Source: Desulforhopalus sp. (GTDB taxonomy: Bacteria > Desulfobacterota > Desulfobulbia > Desulfobulbales > Desulfocapsaceae). From it: a stretch of 42,866 nt of DNA. Shown here piece after piece: positions 26,599-42,456 of this stretch (position 1 is its first letter; the number at the start of each line of letters is the position of its first letter). The stretch is from positions 1-42,866 of the forward strand of contig JANJUM010000179.1 of the NCBI GenBank assembly GCA_024710585.1, written 5' to 3'. The notes under the pieces were generated by a model. The model saw only the letters and a program-made list of their open reading frames with translations. It was not told where the DNA came from and did not search any database. Both the position numbers and the translations under genes were made by a program.

Positions 26599-27909
26599 AT
26601 GATTGACATGCTCAAAGAAATACTCCTCGATCTTCAGGAGATTGACCTTCCGACGGGTGTGCCCAGGCGGGTTGCTGTCTCAACAGTGCCGGGGAAAGCT
26701 ACGGTTTGCATCGGGGCGCGCCGCAGCGGCAAATCGACTTTCATGTTCCAACTCATGAAGAAGCTGCAGGATTCAGGCGTTTCCAGGCAGAACATCCTTT
26801 ATCTGAACTTTTTCGATGATCGTCTGCGCAGCCTGCAACACGACAACCTGGGTGTGATCCTGGAAGCGTACTTTTTGCTCTATCCGGAAAAAAAGGGTGC
26901 GGAGAAGGTGTATTGCTTTTTCGATGAGATTCAGGTCGTACCTGGCTGGGAGCCCTTCGTTGATCGTTTGATGCGCATGGAAAAGTGCGAGGTGTACATG
27001 ACCGGGTCGTCGGCTCAGATGCTTTCTCGAGAGATCGCGACCCAGATGCGCGGTCGGGCACTCTCCTGGGAAATGTTTCCGTTTTCATTCCGGGAGTTTC
27101 TCGACTACAAGGGGATCGAGAGCGACGGTCCGCTCTCGACCAAAAAACGTCTGACTGTCCAAAAGGCATTCGAAGAGTACTGGGAAACCGGCGGCTTCCC
27201 CGAGGTTGCTGGCCTTGACCGGATGCTGCGAATCAAGACCCACCAGGAGTATTTCAACGCAATGCTGTTCCGGGACCTTGTTGAACGCCATGACATCTCT
27301 CACCCCAAGGCGGTCACGGACCTGGCGCATTGGCTGGTAGATAATACGGGTTCCCTCTATTCCATCAACAACCTGACCGGCTATCTGAAATCGCTGGGGC
27401 ACAAGGCGCCGAAATCCGCTGTCTCAGATTATCTCGAATGGTTCGAGGACGCCTACGTTCTGTTCACGGTGCGCATCTTTGACCCCTCGCTGGCCCGGGC
27501 CAATACCAATCCAAAAAAGATTTACTGTATCGATCACACGCTGGTGACGTCGATCAGCTCCGGCATTCTGGTCAACTCGGGGCATCTTCTGGAGAACCTG
27601 GTGTTCATTGCGCTGCGTCGCGTCATGTCCGATATATTTTACTACAAGACCAAGGCGGGCCGCGAGGTTGATTTCATCGCCGGAGGACAAGGCCCGTCCC
27701 GCATGCTCGTTCAGGTTTGTGAATCGATGGCCGACCAGAAAACCCGCAAGAGGGAAATTGTCGCGCTTGCCGAAGCCATGACCGAACTAAAACTGTCGCA
27801 AGGCATTATCGTGACGCGGAACGAGGAAGAGCAGATACAGGTCGATGCAGGAAAGATTGACGTGGTGCCCGCCTGGCGGTTTCTGTTGAACATGCCGGAA
27901 AGCATCTGA
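26599..27909 (+). CDS. AAA_14 / DUF4143 family ATPase
   Basis: A 436-residue protein. The P-loop ATPase half has Walker A GARRSGKST (39-47) and Walker B VYCFFDEIQ (Asp109, Glu110), followed by sensor MTGSSAQML and RGRALSWEMFPFSFREFL, typical of AAA_14. The C-terminal DUF4143 half (about 200-430) contains ETGGFPEV, YLEWFEDAYVLF and the restriction-endonuclease-like strand YYKTKAGREVDFI. In this very common family the biochemical role is unproven. It is often mobile or horizontally transferred and sometimes discussed as defence- or toxin-related. The ATG at 26599 has GGAGGG seven bases upstream. Base composition is lower in GC than the flanking genes, and no partner gene adjoins it, which suggests transfer as a single cassette. 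Confidence 0.9.
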   Translation: MIDMLKEILLDLQEIDLPTGVPRRVAVSTVPGKATVCIGARRSGKSTFMFQLMKKLQDSGVSRQNILYLNFFDDRLRSLQHDNLGVILEAYFLLYPEKKGAEKVYCFFDEIQVVPGWEPFVDRLMRMEKCEVYMTGSSAQMLSREIATQMRGRALSWEMFPFSFREFLDYKGIESDGPLSTKKRLTVQKAFEEYWETGGFPEVAGLDRMLRIKTHQEYFNAMLFRDLVERHDISHPKAVTDLAHWLVDNTGSLYSINNLTGYLKSLGHKAPKSAVSDYLEWFEDAYVLFTVRIFDPSLARANTNPKKIYCIDHTLVTSISSGILVNSGHLLENLVFIALRRVMSDIFYYKTKAGREVDFIAGGQGPSRMLVQVCESMADQKTRKREIVALAEAMTELKLSQGIIVTRNEEEQIQVDAGKIDVVPAWRFLLNMPESI

Positions 27910-35661: not shown

Positions 35662-36360
35662 TTACTTTCCTTGGTCCTCACTCCAGGCATTGAGTCTGTT
35701 TGTTCTCATGGTGGAACGCGACCAGTGATGTTCGACCGCCTGAATAAATTCGGGGCGGACAAGTTTGGCCCGTTGTTCAAGCCAGTCGCCGTTATCAATT
35801 CTCAGATAAATTCCTTCAGCAGGCTGATTGGTCAGCTTTGATAGCGATAAGAGTTCTTGAATCTCGAGATAGGTAAACCGCCCACGTGCAATACCTGGAA
35901 CCTTGGAGATATGTATCTTTGCTAGTATCCGATCCCGGTGCATCGTGGATAGAAAGCGCCGTTCCTCTCGGTCATAAATATCAAAGGCGAGAAACCAGTC
36001 GGGCAGACGGTCATAGGAAATCGAATGCTGGGCATAACACCACTCGCCAAACAGAATGTACCGACCAGAGAGATGCTCGAACAGCGCATCGGTGTGGAGC
36101 GCCAACCATTCGCCGAGTTTTTTCCACTGTCCCGAGCCGGGCAGGTGCAAATAAGCCCCCCTGTTCTGGGCGCGGATATTCCCATACGCATCAAACGAGA
36201 GCCCCAGGTTTGCGCCATCCACCTTTTCTTCTACAGTTACCTCATGGGTCAGGAAATTATCTCGTTCTGATTCTGTCAGAACCTTATCGCCCCTGATGTC
36301 AACCCCCGGCATTGTCGCCAGATGAGGCGTTGAGGGGAATTTGAAGAAATTTTCTTTCAC
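35662..36360 (-). CDS. Rnl2-type RNA ligase family protein
   Basis: A 232-residue nucleotidyltransferase-fold ligase. Motif I is EKVDGANLGL with adenylation Lys46, then AQNRGAYL, and motif III is LFGEWCYAQHSI (103-114). Motif IIIa is WFLAFDIYD, motif IV EGIYLRI (182-188), and motif V RAKLVR with Lys199. These fit ATP-dependent RNA ligases that seal 3'-OH/5'-PO4 breaks. It lacks the C-terminal domain of T4 Rnl2, so substrate choice may need a partner. The GTG at 36360 was chosen because it overlaps the stop of the upstream PIN-like gene (GTGA) with GGGA just before it; the longer frame enters that gene. It is the last gene of the ATPase-PIN-ligase set and less GC-rich than the chromosome around it. 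Confidence 0.88.
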   Translation of the reverse strand: MKENFFKFPSTPHLATMPGVDIRGDKVLTESERDNFLTHEVTVEEKVDGANLGLSFDAYGNIRAQNRGAYLHLPGSGQWKKLGEWLALHTDALFEHLSGRYILFGEWCYAQHSISYDRLPDWFLAFDIYDREERRFLSTMHRDRILAKIHISKVPGIARGRFTYLEIQELLSLSKLTNQPAEGIYLRIDNGDWLEQRAKLVRPEFIQAVEHHWSRSTMRTNRLNAWSEDQGK

Positions 36361-36887
36361 GTTCCCATCTTCTCGGCATATTTGGCTTCGACATATTCCG
36401 GGCAAAGAAACTGAACCGATATCCCAACCTCAGCCAGGGCATCCTTCCATCCCCACCACTTGCTGTCTGTGGCCTGCAATATCGGCGGCTTCTCCATGTG
36501 GGCGTTGGCTGCTGCAACAAACTTGCGGTCCGATCTGTCGAAATCTTTCAGGTCGCCATGTGTGGGAAACTCATCGTATGAGACGCCAGTTTTGGTAATC
36601 GTCACTCTGTCGCAATACTCTGGATTATGGCGGTGATCGTTCACCCATTTCATAAAAACATCGCCAATACCGGGTTGCCCCTTCATGGAGAGCTGCTGCC
36701 GGTATTCATCGAAAATTTCGTCTCCCGCATCGATGATTAGGCCGCGCTTTTTAATGACATGCTCGACCGCCTCGACGCAGGCCAGCACGCAGTCATCGGA
36801 TACGTCAGAGCCTGGGTCCGGCTGGGTAGCGAGATTGGCCGTCTTGGGCACATTGGTATCCACCAGGCATTTCTCGGGCAGGCTCAT
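36357..36887 (-). CDS. PIN-domain-like ribonuclease
   Basis: A 176-residue protein with the acidic layout of PIN nucleases: Asp10 in CLVDTN, Glu57/Asp60/Glu61 in EIFDEYRQQL, Asp117/Asp120 in FDRSDRKFVAAA and Asp141 in ATDSKWWGW. Such domains cut single-stranded RNA with divalent metal ions, and many are toxins. It is somewhat longer than a minimal VapC-type toxin, and no small antitoxin gene adjoins it. The ATG at 36887 overlaps the ATPase stop (ATGA), and GGAGG stands upstream. The stop overlaps the RNA ligase GTG. The ATPase may therefore act as the sensor or restraint, and the ligase as the repair partner; both are inferences. The PIN assignment itself is moderately strong. Confidence 0.75.
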   Translation of the reverse strand: MSLPEKCLVDTNVPKTANLATQPDPGSDVSDDCVLACVEAVEHVIKKRGLIIDAGDEIFDEYRQQLSMKGQPGIGDVFMKWVNDHRHNPEYCDRVTITKTGVSYDEFPTHGDLKDFDRSDRKFVAAANAHMEKPPILQATDSKWWGWKDALAEVGISVQFLCPEYVEAKYAEKMGT

Positions 36888-38287
36888 GAGGAGGCCTCCA
36901 GCTTTTTGGTTTTCTGCATCCGCTTCTTCATGGCGGCCTTGGCCTGTTCGGTGATGTCGCCCATTTCATCGCCGAAGAAGTTCTCCGGCCAGTTCTGGAT
37001 GTTGCCGAAGATATCGATTTGCAACGGTTCCAGGGTCGCGGGCGTCCTGGCGATATTGGCGAAATAGGCCGATACTTTTTCCTGCGGGACTGCATCCTCG
37101 GCGATACGGCGCTGCAGGCGGCGCAGGAAATGCTCCGAGTGGGTCTCGATAACCAGCTGAATATCCCTGGCTGTCCCATTTTCCCTGGAGTTGATAACAT
37201 CGATCATCACATCGGCCAGTGCCGATTGCGCATTCGGATGTAGGTGGATCTCCGGCTGTTCCATGAGGATGATCGATCCGGCCGGAGCGTAGAAACACTG
37301 CACCAGAACCGGCAGCACCTGCGATATGCCAAAACCGACGTCCGGGAGATCGACCCAGTCCCTTGATCCCTTGGTGCGAACCTTGACCTCGTACTCCTGC
37401 CGTTGCTCGGATATCGGGCTGACCTTGAACTCCTCGATCAGTCCCATTTCCTTGAGCTTGATGGCGATGATCTCCTCAAAAGGTTTGGCTGGCCGTTTGT
37501 AACCCAGGCTTATTTTGCGGTTTCGCGCCGCAAGAATTGCCGCGACCGTATTTTCCCCCGCATAGCCGACACTTTCGGGCTCCATGCCGGTCCAGGAATA
37601 CAGACGCTCCGCCTTGGTGCGCAGGGGGCCAAGATAACAGAGTGATCGGTAGAGCTTTTCATGGCGCAGGTTCAGTGCTTGGACGAAATCCGCGTTCTGG
37701 TGATAGGCAACCACCTCGTCAGGAAAACCGTAAAACCGGACCGGTGCGCCGGGATACCAGACCCGCCCCTGCTTACGTTTCAGCGTGTAATTGGTCGCAT
37801 CGACTTTGTACTCGGACTTGGCGCCCGATTTTCGCTCCATGCCGATGGACAGCCGGGATTCATCGTCTTCAAGCAACTCGTATTTCAGTTGGTCAAGCAC
37901 CAGGGTGTGCTGGTCCTTATCCCCTAAACCGACCTCGGCATGAAAAGAGAGGTTATCGCCGGAAAAGGCCTGGCCGGTCACCGGGTCTTTGAACTTCAGT
38001 ATTTCCGGCAATGACCACCGATAGTCAAAGGTGATCTTGTTTTCCGGAATGCGGTGAAAAACCATCTCCTGATAGGAGCCAAGCTGAACCGCCGAGTTCT
38101 TGCCGCCCGGATAGAAAACCGCCTTTCTGTCCGGTGACTCCACGGTCTGCTTGAGCATCATCAGGAACTGGCCGATGCTGGATTTTCCCGAGCTGTTGGC
38201 GCCAAAAAACAGTGAGATGGGAGCCATGCGAATGGTGCCGGTATCCTTCCAGCCTTTGAAGTTTTGTATTCGCAATTGTTTCAGCAT
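36884..38287 (-). CDS. AAA family ATPase with DUF3696 C-terminus (RecF/OLD-like)
   Basis: A 467-residue ABC/SMC-type ATPase. The start MLKQLRIQNFKGWKD is typical of the AAA_15/AAA_21 group. Walker A is GANSSGKSS (29-37), the signature region is VGFGISQVLPVL (about 317-328), and Walker B is IILMEQPEIHLHP with Glu343 in the MEQPE segment. The switch-histidine motif is ETHSEHF. The C-terminal NWPENFFGDEMGDI matches DUF3696. Related ATPases occur in defence systems such as PARIS, Septu-like and retron-associated loci, where they sense infection and hold a nuclease in check. The ATG at 38287 has GGAGAGAGG upstream. The stop overlaps the PIN-like gene, so translation is coupled. Confidence 0.9.
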   Translation of the reverse strand: MLKQLRIQNFKGWKDTGTIRMAPISLFFGANSSGKSSIGQFLMMLKQTVESPDRKAVFYPGGKNSAVQLGSYQEMVFHRIPENKITFDYRWSLPEILKFKDPVTGQAFSGDNLSFHAEVGLGDKDQHTLVLDQLKYELLEDDESRLSIGMERKSGAKSEYKVDATNYTLKRKQGRVWYPGAPVRFYGFPDEVVAYHQNADFVQALNLRHEKLYRSLCYLGPLRTKAERLYSWTGMEPESVGYAGENTVAAILAARNRKISLGYKRPAKPFEEIIAIKLKEMGLIEEFKVSPISEQRQEYEVKVRTKGSRDWVDLPDVGFGISQVLPVLVQCFYAPAGSIILMEQPEIHLHPNAQSALADVMIDVINSRENGTARDIQLVIETHSEHFLRRLQRRIAEDAVPQEKVSAYFANIARTPATLEPLQIDIFGNIQNWPENFFGDEMGDITEQAKAAMKKRMQKTKKLEASS

Positions 38288-38344
38288 AAGTCCTCTCTCC
38301 TGTCTGTATTGCCACGCCGCCCACGGTGCCCGGCATTTGTGCGG

Positions 38345-38542
38345 TTACCAACAACGACTCTGGGCAAAATTACGCTCATCTCCAACTCGCTCTGTAGCCA
38401 ACAGCTTTGCCAGCCTGGTCAGTGCCTCGGAGACCACCGGGGCAGGGGCTTCCATCCTGGCCCGGCGGTGATCGTTGCAGCCTTTGTCCCGCAAGACGGG
38501 ATCGATCAGCAAGATAAAGGCTTCCTGTTCGTTGTAGCTCAT
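38345..38542 (-). pseudogene. Truncated N-terminus of a restriction-type (HsdR-like) helicase subunit
   Basis: A 65-codon ORF starting MSYNEQEAFILLIDPVLRDK and continuing to a PAPV motif. This resembles the first about 40 residues of DEAD/DEAH helicase-restriction (HsdR-like) proteins, usually many hundreds of residues long. The remaining residues (EALTRLAKLLATERV and beyond) do not fit that family, so the gene appears cut off and joined to other sequence. The ATG overlaps the upstream regulator's stop (ATGA). The DUF3696 ATPase starts 57 bases after its stop, so the ATPase module seems to occupy the place of the missing helicase. The identification is from memory of the family. Confidence 0.55.
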
Positions 38543-38772
38543 GGTTTGCCCACCGCTTCTGGCAGGCCCGGATTGATCCCGTTTGTTTCACAAAAAACGA
38601 TAAACTGCCGCTGCGCCAACTTCGACGGAATGGTCTTGCCGTTCTCCCAGCGATTGACCGTGGCGAAGCTCACCCCGAGGGCGTGGGCCAGTTCCTCCTG
38701 GGAGAGCGCCAGCCGCCGCCGCACCTCCTTGACTGTGGCCGGGAAATTTTCGGGTTGGCGGATCATGACCAT
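38539..38772 (-). CDS. XRE-family helix-turn-helix regulator
   Basis: A 77-residue protein with a Cro/C1-type helix-turn-helix at about residues 14-50 (VRRRLALSQEELAHALGVSF, then ATVNRWENGKTIPSKLAQ). It probably controls the operon it stands in. The ATG at 38772 has GGGAG about seven bases upstream and excludes a non-conserved extension. Its 5' end overlaps the preceding small gene by ten bases, and its stop overlaps the truncated helicase-like ORF. Small XRE proteins of this form usually precede restriction or helicase genes, which supports that reading of the neighbour. Confidence 0.88.
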   Translation of the reverse strand: MVMIRQPENFPATVKEVRRRLALSQEELAHALGVSFATVNRWENGKTIPSKLAQRQFIVFCETNGINPGLPEAVGKP

Positions 38773-39335: not shown

Positions 39336-41564
39336 TTAACTGGTGAGCAGGCGGTACATTTGGACCATCTTTAACGGCAAGGCATTTATGTTGTTTACAA
39401 AAATATAGTTTCTGGCCCCAAACATATGGGCCAGATATTCATGGGCCGATTTGTCGATGGTAATACAGAAAGAATGTACTCCCACGCCTTTCGCCTCCAG
39501 CAACGCCTTTCTGGTATCTTCGATGGCGTACTGGCCTTTGTAGTCGTCGTAATCCTCTGGTTTGCCATCGGAAATGACCACGAGCAGCCGGATCTTGCTC
39601 TGAGATTCAAGCAGCTTTTTGGTCAGATGGCGGATAGGCGGTCCCATGCGGGTGTAGTCTCGGGGAGCGATTGCGGCGATCCGCCTCTGGACGACGGTGC
39701 CATACGGCTCCTCGGGGTGCTTGATGTGAAAAAGTTGGCTCCGCGATCGTCTCATTCCGGAAAATCCATAGATTCCAAATTGATCCCCGGCGGTTTCCAG
39801 GGCCTCGGCCAACAAGACCAGGGCCTCCTTCAGCGCCACGCCGATCCAGCCTTCCGTGGAACTGGACATATCGACCAGAAACATGGTGGTGATACTGCGC
39901 GAATCGCGTAAGAGACGGGTAAAAAGGCGGTCGGAGGGGATGAAGCCTGCCTGGTAATCTCCCAGGGCCTCGATCAGGGCGTCGAGGTCGATGTCATCGC
40001 CTTCCCTCTGGCGGCGGACGATACGGTCAGTTGTGCGCAACATCTCGAATTGCCGGCGCATTTTTTTGAGCAGCACGCCGTACTTCGTGAGGGTCGCCGC
40101 CACAAAACCGGAGCGCACCGGAGAAAGCGATTTCTCCTCAAGGTTACACCAGTCACTGCGATAGCCCCCTCTCCGGTAATCCCATTCGTCGTAGCGAAAG
40201 ACTTGCTCCGTTGCCAGTGCCAGTGCCGTCGATGCCGTCTCGGCGATGGCCTGGTTGCCCTTGTGCATGCCTCCGCCAGCAAGGCCGGCGGCTGCCTGCC
40301 CGTAAGCCTGCGGCACCCTTCCAAAATCATTGATGATATTCCTGGTCAGTGCCAACAAGGCCTCGGGGATTGGCGTGCCTTCATTGTCGAACACAATCTG
40401 ATCCCGGGCCCTGGCTTCATCGGTCGGGGCCGCTACCTGCTGCAAAAGAGCGAGCACATCGGTGATTGAGGTCGTTGCCTCCGGGGTCTGGCCGCTGGCA
40501 GCGGCAGGCTGCCGTTTGTCTCCGAGAAAGGCCGCGAGCATTGCCACGAATTGCTGTTTTTCCTCTTGTCGTCGCAAGCTAATGGTTCTCCCGGCTCTTG
40601 AAAAATTCAGCTCCCCGAGCAGCAGGGCCGCGGGTCCGAGATGGTATGAGCCGGCAAGTGTGGAAAAATTCGCATAGATCTCGGGAAGAAGATCAAGGCT
40701 CTTGCTCTGCCAACTGTGTGTCATCAAACTCTTCGACGTTATCCGACAGGAAACCGGCTGCTGCAGGAATGCTTGCAAGGCCTGGCATCGTTCCTTGGCA
40801 TCCTGCGGAACTATTTGTTCGATGAGCTGAGTGCAGAGGGTACTTCCTTGCCGGACCAATCCCGGAAGTTCAACCGCCAGAAAGGCGTAAACCCTGCGAA
40901 ATTGTAACGCGGCAAGAAGATCGTTTGCCAACTTTCGGTCTGGATAGCCCCGCAGAGGGTCATCGCTTTGGCCGCCTGGAACTTCGGCGGCGACCTCCTG
41001 GTAGATGCCGGAGGCGATCTGGCCCCACTGCAATGACGCCAGCACCTTGAAGAGCAGGATATTTTTGTCCCTTTGCGGGAACTGGTCGAGAAAATCGGGC
41101 AGGTAAATTGTGGTGGTATCGGTACCGGGGGCGATGGCGCTGTCGAGATGCAGGTGCCGGCCGGAAATGCCACGGATATACGGCATCAAAATTGAAGACA
41201 CCTCCGCCAGGCCGACCCCGGCCTCGCCCCGCATCGGTCCGAGAAAGTGTTTGTCGATATCGGCCATGAACGTTCGCGCACCGGCCAGGCCCTTTTTTTC
41301 ATAGACCGCAAGTACCTGCCGGACCCATTCCGGCACCAGCTCAACGGAAAAAGCCCGGAGGGCAGAAACCCCTTCACGCAGATAGGCAAAACAGAGGCTG
41401 TGACTGACCGGCCAGATGGTTGCCACCTGGCTCAGCAGAACTTCCCGTGATTCTCCCGGCAGGGCGGCGAGCTGGTCAAATACTTCGTCAACTTCCCATT
41501 CGTTGGGCTGGGCAGGAAGGATGCTGGCATAAAATTGCGCTTTTTGTTCTGCAAGGCCGATCAT
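39336..41564 (-). CDS. NorD/CbbO-like VWA-domain protein
   Basis: A 742-residue protein whose C-terminal about 180 residues form a von Willebrand A domain with MIDAS motif FLVDMSSSTEG (Asp565, Ser567, Ser569), ISDGKPEDYDDYKG and a terminal YRLLTS helix. The upstream part is helical and unlike other domains, as in NorD and CbbO. These act with a MoxR-type ATPase (NorQ/CbbQ) to remodel or load metal centres in target enzymes such as nitric oxide reductase or RuBisCO. The start at 41564 follows the ATPase stop by one base, so the pair is translationally linked. No target enzyme gene is in the window, so the client is unknown. Base composition is lower in GC than region 1. Confidence 0.87.
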   Translation of the reverse strand: MIGLAEQKAQFYASILPAQPNEWEVDEVFDQLAALPGESREVLLSQVATIWPVSHSLCFAYLREGVSALRAFSVELVPEWVRQVLAVYEKKGLAGARTFMADIDKHFLGPMRGEAGVGLAEVSSILMPYIRGISGRHLHLDSAIAPGTDTTTIYLPDFLDQFPQRDKNILLFKVLASLQWGQIASGIYQEVAAEVPGGQSDDPLRGYPDRKLANDLLAALQFRRVYAFLAVELPGLVRQGSTLCTQLIEQIVPQDAKERCQALQAFLQQPVSCRITSKSLMTHSWQSKSLDLLPEIYANFSTLAGSYHLGPAALLLGELNFSRAGRTISLRRQEEKQQFVAMLAAFLGDKRQPAAASGQTPEATTSITDVLALLQQVAAPTDEARARDQIVFDNEGTPIPEALLALTRNIINDFGRVPQAYGQAAAGLAGGGMHKGNQAIAETASTALALATEQVFRYDEWDYRRGGYRSDWCNLEEKSLSPVRSGFVAATLTKYGVLLKKMRRQFEMLRTTDRIVRRQREGDDIDLDALIEALGDYQAGFIPSDRLFTRLLRDSRSITTMFLVDMSSSTEGWIGVALKEALVLLAEALETAGDQFGIYGFSGMRRSRSQLFHIKHPEEPYGTVVQRRIAAIAPRDYTRMGPPIRHLTKKLLESQSKIRLLVVISDGKPEDYDDYKGQYAIEDTRKALLEAKGVGVHSFCITIDKSAHEYLAHMFGARNYIFVNNINALPLKMVQMYRLLTS

Positions 41565-41565
41565 T

Positions 41566-42396
41566 TCAAAAGATGGAAAGAATCATTTCGTCCAGCGCCT
41601 TGAGGAGTTCGGGGTCGTCGGTCAGGCTCTCGATCATCCCGACCCGGCAGGCGTTCACCTCATCGATTCCTGACCGGATCAGCCGGGCGGTCTGGATAAC
41701 CAGCCGGGTGGACGCCCCCTCTGCCAGTCCAGACTCCTTGAGGCCTCGGGTCATGGTGGCGAGTTTCACCAACTGGTACGCAAGCTCCCCGTCGATGCCG
41801 CATTCCCGCACGACGATTTCCTGCTCCAGCTTTGCCTCAGGATAATCGAAGTTGAGAGAGACGAAACGTTGCCTTGTCGAGGGTTTGAGGTCTTTGAGGA
41901 CGCTCTGGTAGCCAGGGTTGTAGGATACGGCCAACATAAACTCTGGCGGAGCGCTGTAGAGTACGCCGAGTTTTTCGATGGGAAGTTCCCGGCGATCGTC
42001 GGTCAACGGATGGATGATGACGGTGGTGTCCTTCCGTGCCTCAACGATCTCGTCGAGATAACATATCGCTCCGGCTTTGACCGCAAGGGTGAGCGGGCCA
42101 TCCTGCCAGATGGCCTCGCAGCCCTTGACAAGATAGCGTCCGACGAGATCGGCCGCCGAAAGGTCGTCGTGGCAGGAGACAGTGATCAGGGGCCGCTGCA
42201 ATCGCCAGGCGAGGTATTGCATGAACCGGGTTTTGCCGCAGCCGGTAGGACCTTTCAGGAGCAGTGGGAACAGGTTTTCGCTCGCCGCAAGGCCAATTTC
42301 GATCTCGTTGGCACGAGGCAGGAAAAATGGTTCCGCTATAATTTTGTGTTCATCGAGCCTGCATTCCGAAGAGGCTTTCAAATTCATGGTCTTCAT
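41566..42396 (-). CDS. NorQ/CbbQ-like MoxR AAA+ ATPase
   Basis: A 276-residue AAA+ ATPase. Walker A is GPTGCGKT (49-56), Walker B is ICYLDEI (Asp115, Glu116), and sensor-1 lies around MLAVSYNPGY. The C-terminal helical domain carries ASTRLVIQTARLI, and the N-terminus IIAEPFFLPRANEI is characteristic of the CbbQ/NirQ/NorQ group. It powers remodelling of a client enzyme with its VWA partner, whose gene starts one base after its stop. The ATG at 42396 has GGAG about ten bases upstream; a longer frame adds an unconserved Cys-rich stretch. A promoter is likely at 42428-42456. Confidence 0.9.
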   Translation of the reverse strand: MKTMNLKASSECRLDEHKIIAEPFFLPRANEIEIGLAASENLFPLLLKGPTGCGKTRFMQYLAWRLQRPLITVSCHDDLSAADLVGRYLVKGCEAIWQDGPLTLAVKAGAICYLDEIVEARKDTTVIIHPLTDDRRELPIEKLGVLYSAPPEFMLAVSYNPGYQSVLKDLKPSTRQRFVSLNFDYPEAKLEQEIVVRECGIDGELAYQLVKLATMTRGLKESGLAEGASTRLVIQTARLIRSGIDEVNACRVGMIESLTDDPELLKALDEMILSIF

Positions 42397-42427
42397 GACA
42401 TATTCTCCATCGCGTGAGTATGATAAG

Positions 42428-42456
42428 AGAATATGACACCGGCAGACGAAGGACAA
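42428..42456 (-). promoter_or_regulatory. Candidate promoter of the MoxR-VWA operon
   Basis: TTGTCC (42456-42451), a 17-base spacer and TATTCT (42433-42428) on the minus strand, giving a start near 42421 and a leader of about 25 bases. Both boxes match the sigma-70 consensus at four of six positions. Confidence 0.45.

Follow-up and report, generated by a model that had tools for sequence, protein, structure and literature searches.

Three overlapping minus-strand genes in the window (the whole stretch of 42,866 nucleotides analysed here) encode an OLD/AriA-type ABC ATPase, a nuclease with a predicted PIN fold, and an Rnl2-like RNA ligase; this trio is a real, co-inherited, and conserved unit. 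We lean, though without much confidence, towards reading it as a mobile antiphage module, equivalent to the candidate system HEC-03 with the addition of a ligase, in which an ATPase-gated PIN RNase would cut RNA and the ligase would reseal it. The features of the locus are as follows.

36884..38287, minus strand: ATPase (DUF3696; OLD/AriA-type ABC ATPase), 467 aa, PADLOC HEC-03B
36357..36887, minus strand: nuclease with predicted PIN fold, 176 aa, PADLOC HEC-03A
35662..36360, minus strand: Rnl2-like ATP-dependent RNA ligase, nucleotidyltransferase domain only, 232 aa, GTG start
38288..38434, minus strand: leader 5' of the ATPase gene, its DNA conserved in the closest relatives
38539..38772, minus strand: XRE-type HTH gene, 77 aa, a neighbour outside the conserved unit

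The initial annotation had described overlapping genes from 38287 to 35662 in DNA of lower GC content, and both points hold: the coordinates are as claimed, the ATPase and PIN genes share a 4-bp ATGA overlap and the PIN and ligase genes a 4-bp GTGA overlap, and GC content is 0.51-0.58 across the trio as compared with ~0.65 to its left. Leader alignments to four relatives (L025, L029, L031, and L028) end at 38392-38434, and by this conservation the interval 38288..38434 is probably the promoter or leader of the cassette. The XRE-type gene, earlier taken for the regulator of the unit, is not conserved with the trio; in the loci searched, a similar gene was seen in L031 and L030 only, 5-9 kb downstream of the trio, and a role as conserved regulator was rejected. 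Also rejected was an HsdR remnant between the XRE and ATPase genes, as the 65-aa frame in question (38541..38345) has no HsdR match among the loci and matches the leader region of relatives only. Elsewhere in the window, an AAA (CbbQ/NorQ/GvpN-like) ATPase gene followed by a gene for a 742-aa VWA protein (39336-42456, minus strand) lies immediately upstream of the XRE gene and shares its low-GC block. A separate low-GC patch at 26.0-28.0 kb holds a plus-strand gene (26599-27909) whose product, an ATPase of 436 aa, has a Walker A motif and by eye appears to be of DUF4143 type.

The ATPase has Pfam matches to AAA_15 (2e-25) and DUF3696 (9e-9). Its match to the PADLOC HEC-03B model (PDLC04148) reaches 2.1e-130 over residues 1-461, whereas matches to the AriA models are far weaker (9.3e-28 and 3.7e-18); the better of these still fits the earlier PARIS-like reading of the protein. 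The Walker motifs reported for it are indeed intact: Walker A (GANSSGKSS) occupies residues 29-37 and Walker B (IILMEQPE) residues 339-346, with K35 kept in 82 of 83 trios and Q344-P345-E346 in all 83. Searching PDB sequences with phmmer returned nothing useful for the ATPase, the PIN protein, or the ligase.

No Pfam PIN match, nor a match to any Pfam family, was obtained for the 176-aa protein; it matches PADLOC HEC-03A (PDLC04147) at 1.7e-30 over residues 7-165. AF2 modelled it with confidence (pLDDT 96.3). With Foldseek alone this model had no significant match; via a second look with a second aligner, VapC11 and VapC21 came top at Z 9.2, and nearly all of the top fold matches were PIN/VapC proteins, with FitB, a DNA-bound PIN protein, also among the matches. 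These predictions bear out the PIN-like character that the initial annotation gave the protein, and its four acidic positions of the active site are near-invariant (D10, E61, and D117 in 83/83 trios; D141 in 82/83). There is no VapB antitoxin gene beside the PIN gene, its overlapping neighbours being those of the ATPase and ligase. The C-terminal helix of the protein (residues 163-174) goes with the ligase-bearing form: in a ligase-less clade the PIN proteins stop ~8-10 residues earlier and lack this last helix. By this sequence comparison the helix could be a docking element, the evidence amounting to one event because only one clade shows the shorter PIN.

The third protein matches the Pfam family RNA_ligase (PF09414, 1e-31), and the Rnl2-type motifs attributed to it are present and conserved, with key residues K46 (motif I), R67 (Ia), E106 (III), E182 (IV), and K199 (V). 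K46, D48, G49, R67, E106, and E182 occur in 83/83 trios, and K199 is kept in all 81 trio sequences that align there. The structural model (pLDDT 91.1) comprises one nucleotidyltransferase domain and a short disordered end; its nearest solved structures are T4 Rnl2 (2hvq, E 1.3e-7), a Naegleria RNA ligase, and TbREL1, with DNA-ligase matches ranking lower. The C-terminal domain of full-length T4 Rnl2 is missing from the 232-aa model, so the protein is best described as an Rnl2-like nucleotidyltransferase domain and not as a classical full-length Rnl2. It matches none of the families in PADLOC v2.0.0, and its score against the Rnl3 model TIGR01209 (20.1 bits, cut-off 136.9) indicates that it is not Rnl3.

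A scan of 84,980 species genomes with the PIN alignment identified 330 relatives, and the best 80 of these were taken forward. Within this set of the best 80 of 330, ATPase, PIN, and ligase genes occur in this order and on the same strand, usually overlapping, at 74 loci, and one of the six remaining loci runs off its contig. The adjacency that the initial annotation proposed to look for in other genomes is therefore far above chance. The best 80 come from 15 phyla of bacteria plus a single archaeon, Methanolobus (16 phyla in all), though some taxon labels may be wrong because many of the relatives are metagenome-assembled genomes (MAGs); isolates among them include Akkermansia glycaniphila, Desulfobulbus alkaliphilus, Methanolobus psychrotolerans, and Pantoea piersonii. 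A Rhodococcus plasmid copy adds Actinomycetota. In genome samples not picked by closeness to the protein of the window, the ligase gene lies directly downstream in 16 of 25 assessable HEC-03A loci. In a search from the ligase instead, each of the 13 strong matches whose flanks could be read fell in a trio (nine from the window's class and four from Gammaproteobacteria), and among these no member of the close ligase subfamily was found without PIN and ATPase. The ATPase-PIN pair does exist without the ligase, in one supported clade and through scattered losses at no fewer than five other loci; dependence is therefore one-way. Protein distances for ATPase and ligase are correlated (r 0.80, as against a shuffle maximum of 0.31), and the ATPase tree has only 5 changes in ligase presence but 18 in BREX context. 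Chance adjacency was ruled out by the 74 trios among the 80 loci, by this covariation, and by DNA homology limited to the trio.

Two variants of the locus were seen in passing. On an Acinetobacter soli plasmid (L021:6627-9284), an HNH protein replaces the ligase after the ATPase-PIN pair, which lies inside a helicase/N6-methylase locus and has its ATPase gene split in two frames. In another genome (L010/L015/L193; G037:C1, ~1508000-1510000) the ATPase frame is interrupted while the PIN and ligase frames are open, possibly a decaying copy.

The trio moves as a cassette. At the DNA level, similarity of the window copy is 90% to one labelled Rhodobacterales, 85% to one labelled Proteobacteria, and 84% to one labelled Synergistaceae (all MAG labels), and similarity to these loci starts and stops at the trio edges, including at most ~150 bp of leader. 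The Synergistaceae homologue lies inside a BREX locus. The defence context that had been anticipated is likewise present among relatives: pglX and/or pglZ occur in 27 of the best 80 of 330 loci, the full BREX examples reading pglX - [ATPase-PIN-ligase] - brxHI - pglZ or having pglZ directly after the trio, and type I restriction genes (hsdM, hsdS, or hsdR) adjoin the trio in a further 5 of 80. Neither BREX nor type I restriction-modification (R-M) genes were seen at 27 of the best-80 loci with usable flanks. In the window itself, the trio has no pglX or pglZ neighbour and no R-M genes beside it, and the 276 contigs of the genome (~96% complete) yielded neither a PglZ nor an HsdR_N domain.

Some trio copies are carried on conjugative and mobilizable plasmids, and plasmid copies occur near AbiEii and GASH genes; on an Aeromonas conjugative plasmid (L019:9904-16022), a GASH (GTPase-associated) conflict system with a metallophosphoesterase directly follows the trio within a defence island. 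Complete trios are also found on IMG/VR contigs classed as viral (L105:4084-6690; L106/L186:2909-5501), so that the cassette may have prophages or satellites among its carriers. No PIN relative was found in phage records, and the Pantoea trio copy had no DNA match in E. coli.

From this arrangement we infer a trigger, an RNA target, an end chemistry, and a resealing step. The OLD-type ABC ATPase would keep the PIN nuclease inactive and sense infection, its trigger plausibly being inhibition of an adjacent BREX or type I restriction system, by comparison with AriA, which activates AriB upon sensing Ocr (as quoted in the main text of PMC12839542); alternatively, it may sense a phage product and then release the PIN protein. 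The metal-dependent PIN nuclease would cut host or phage RNA, most likely tRNA or another RNA of translation, halting translation and phage production. Its cuts would probably leave 3'-OH/5'-phosphate ends, which an Rnl2-like ligase could seal directly, and the co-translated ligase would then act without end-healing enzymes, limiting the damage from leaky activity and letting the cell recover.

The proposed chemistry draws on what is known of comparable enzymes. ATP-grasp ligases require 5'-phosphate and 3'-OH ends, and they team with kinases or phosphatases where metal-independent RNases cut (PMC7824862). By analogy with AriB, a metal-dependent Toprim nuclease whose tRNA cuts have 3'-OH/5'-phosphate ends (PMC12409363), we would expect a metal-dependent PIN nuclease to produce ends that can be ligated as they are. 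As a counterpoint, in one paper VapC products are treated as 5'-OH (PMC6459853), so that published PIN-toxin end chemistry is not uniform, and an Rnl2-type ligase could not seal VapC-type 5'-OH ends unaided.

That the ligase reseals PIN cuts is nevertheless probable, given the one-way dependence, the lack of an end-healing kinase in the trio, and the PIN helix tied to the ligase. The most complete form of this reading would be an operon that holds an RNA cutter and a dedicated ligase resealing exactly those cuts, in other words a reversible translation-shutdown defence whose 3'-OH/5'-phosphate chemistry is matched to the ligase without end-healing, and inserted as a cassette in the BREX and type I restriction loci of bacteria from many phyla and of an archaeon; we hold this form tentatively, as a serious possibility that we stop short of favouring. 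Counting against it, the ligase is dispensable in a whole clade and at five or more other loci.

That dispensability would also be expected if, within the same defence module, the ligase mended RNA damage from other RNases or ribotoxins (of host, phage, or competitor origin) and not PIN cuts. Related ligases offer some encouragement here, as phage and plasmid members belong to RNA-repair pairs: ligases just outside the trio subfamily adjoin a protein with HD and P-loop kinase-like domains at 8 loci (plasmid, genome, and viral), an architecture that, to judge from its sequence, is that of an end-healing enzyme. This combination is probably a separate conserved RNA-repair pair (L022:4956-6974, L023:5004-7414, L024:4968-7630, L222:1360-3526, L224, L225, L112, and L117), and its carriers include the P. 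aeruginosa plasmid pF051. However, no HD-kinase of end-healing type occurs in any trio locus, and most ribotoxin cuts would need such an enzyme; moreover, outside the company of PIN and ATPase the trio ligase was not found, and it co-varies with both. We consider general repair unlikely. A different role on the effector side, with the ligase adenylating or mis-joining PIN-made RNA ends and thereby locking in damage or making a signal, might suit a nucleotidyltransferase domain that lacks the C-terminal domain, and strong adenylation with weak ligation has been reported for an archaeal RNA ligase (quoted in the part of PMC12153264 covered here). Yet K199 of motif V and all other motifs are kept, as expected for full ligation, and evolution retains the ATPase-PIN pair without a ligase; this role seems to us quite improbable.

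The nature of the substrate and the purpose of the module bear on the two remaining alternatives. PIN/FEN-like folds include DNA nucleases, and BREX and R-M systems act on DNA. With FitB among the fold matches, the PIN protein could conceivably attack DNA or RNA-DNA hybrids, such as phage replication intermediates, while the ligase sealed host nicks. We give this little credence: the best PIN matches are VapC RNases, the nearest ligases are RNA ligases, the Pfam assignment is likewise RNA ligase, and DNA-ligase folds rank lower. The VapC-like fold and the plasmid-borne copies would also suit a plain toxin-antitoxin or addiction module, in which the ATPase neutralises a PIN toxin, the ligase acts as a safeguard, and phages are affected only incidentally, if at all. 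That the trio is inserted into BREX and type I R-M loci of many phyla accords better with immunity than with plasmid addiction, and we regard simple addiction as very improbable.

Should an antiphage module with a resealing ligase be the correct reading, the definition of HEC-03 would need correction, as it omits a gene that most relatives of the ligase-bearing form possess, and BREX loci would gain a likely RNA-repair step. In PrrC and PARIS, host defence cuts tRNA and the known repair is the phage's own (T4 Pnkp/Rnl1); a widespread, co-inherited cutter and ligase raises the question of whether RNA-cleaving immunity can be reversible by design, with the cell surviving. The PIN-ligase pair could also serve as a tool in studies of RNA cutting and sealing.

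The initial annotation put the trio forward as a candidate undescribed system; "undescribed" is too strong, because PADLOC HEC-03 and reports of OLD-ABC ATPases with PIN nucleases cover the ATPase-PIN pair; the near-constant RNA ligase as third component does seem to be new. HEC-03 has homologues of the same two proteins, HEC-03A and HEC-03B, encoded side by side with their order unchanged, and differs in that the ligase of the window trio is unmatched by any PADLOC v2.0.0 model; no paper on the mechanism of HEC-03 was found, the system being listed in a survey. Pairs of an OLD-family ABC ATPase and a PIN endoRNase, located, as in 27 of the best 80 relatives though not in the window, in or beside BREX core genes, are described as BREX backup effectors in the main text of PMC12839542 (2026), where the word "ligase" has 0 occurrences. 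A ligase as third component, cassette behaviour, and ligase-bearing placement between pglX and brxHI/pglZ were not found in the literature covered, which excludes Burroughs & Aravind 2016 (RNA repair) and Krishnan et al. 2020 (ABC ATPases), where the trio may be mentioned.

Among more distant systems, the HARP gene (a PIN RNase P) is repeatedly found beside an Rnl3 RNA ligase gene, with a toxin-antitoxin role proposed, and so shares with the trio a PIN nuclease gene that recurrently adjoins an RNA ligase gene; in the part of PMC12153264 covered here, however, no ATPase partner is described and most of the genes are divergently arranged and lie outside BREX, and the trio ligase falls below the TIGR01209 cut-off. 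PARIS (AriA-AriB) has, like the trio, an AriA-type ATPase gene followed by a nuclease gene, but its AriB is a Toprim protein, whereas the trio has a PIN nuclease gene and adds one for an RNA ligase as its third. PrrC, encoded in a type I R-M locus and countered by T4 Pnkp-Rnl1, offers the parallel of an ATPase-controlled RNA cutter linked to restriction whose cut is reversed by a ligase. It is a single HEPN-type protein that leaves 2',3'-cyclic-phosphate/5'-OH ends, and the ligase is phage-borne (PMC3400036). Where PrrC and RloC are ATPase-HEPN fusions, the trio has separate genes and a PIN nuclease; and where the ligase that reverses PrrC cleavage belongs to the phage, the trio carries cutter and ligase in one host operon.
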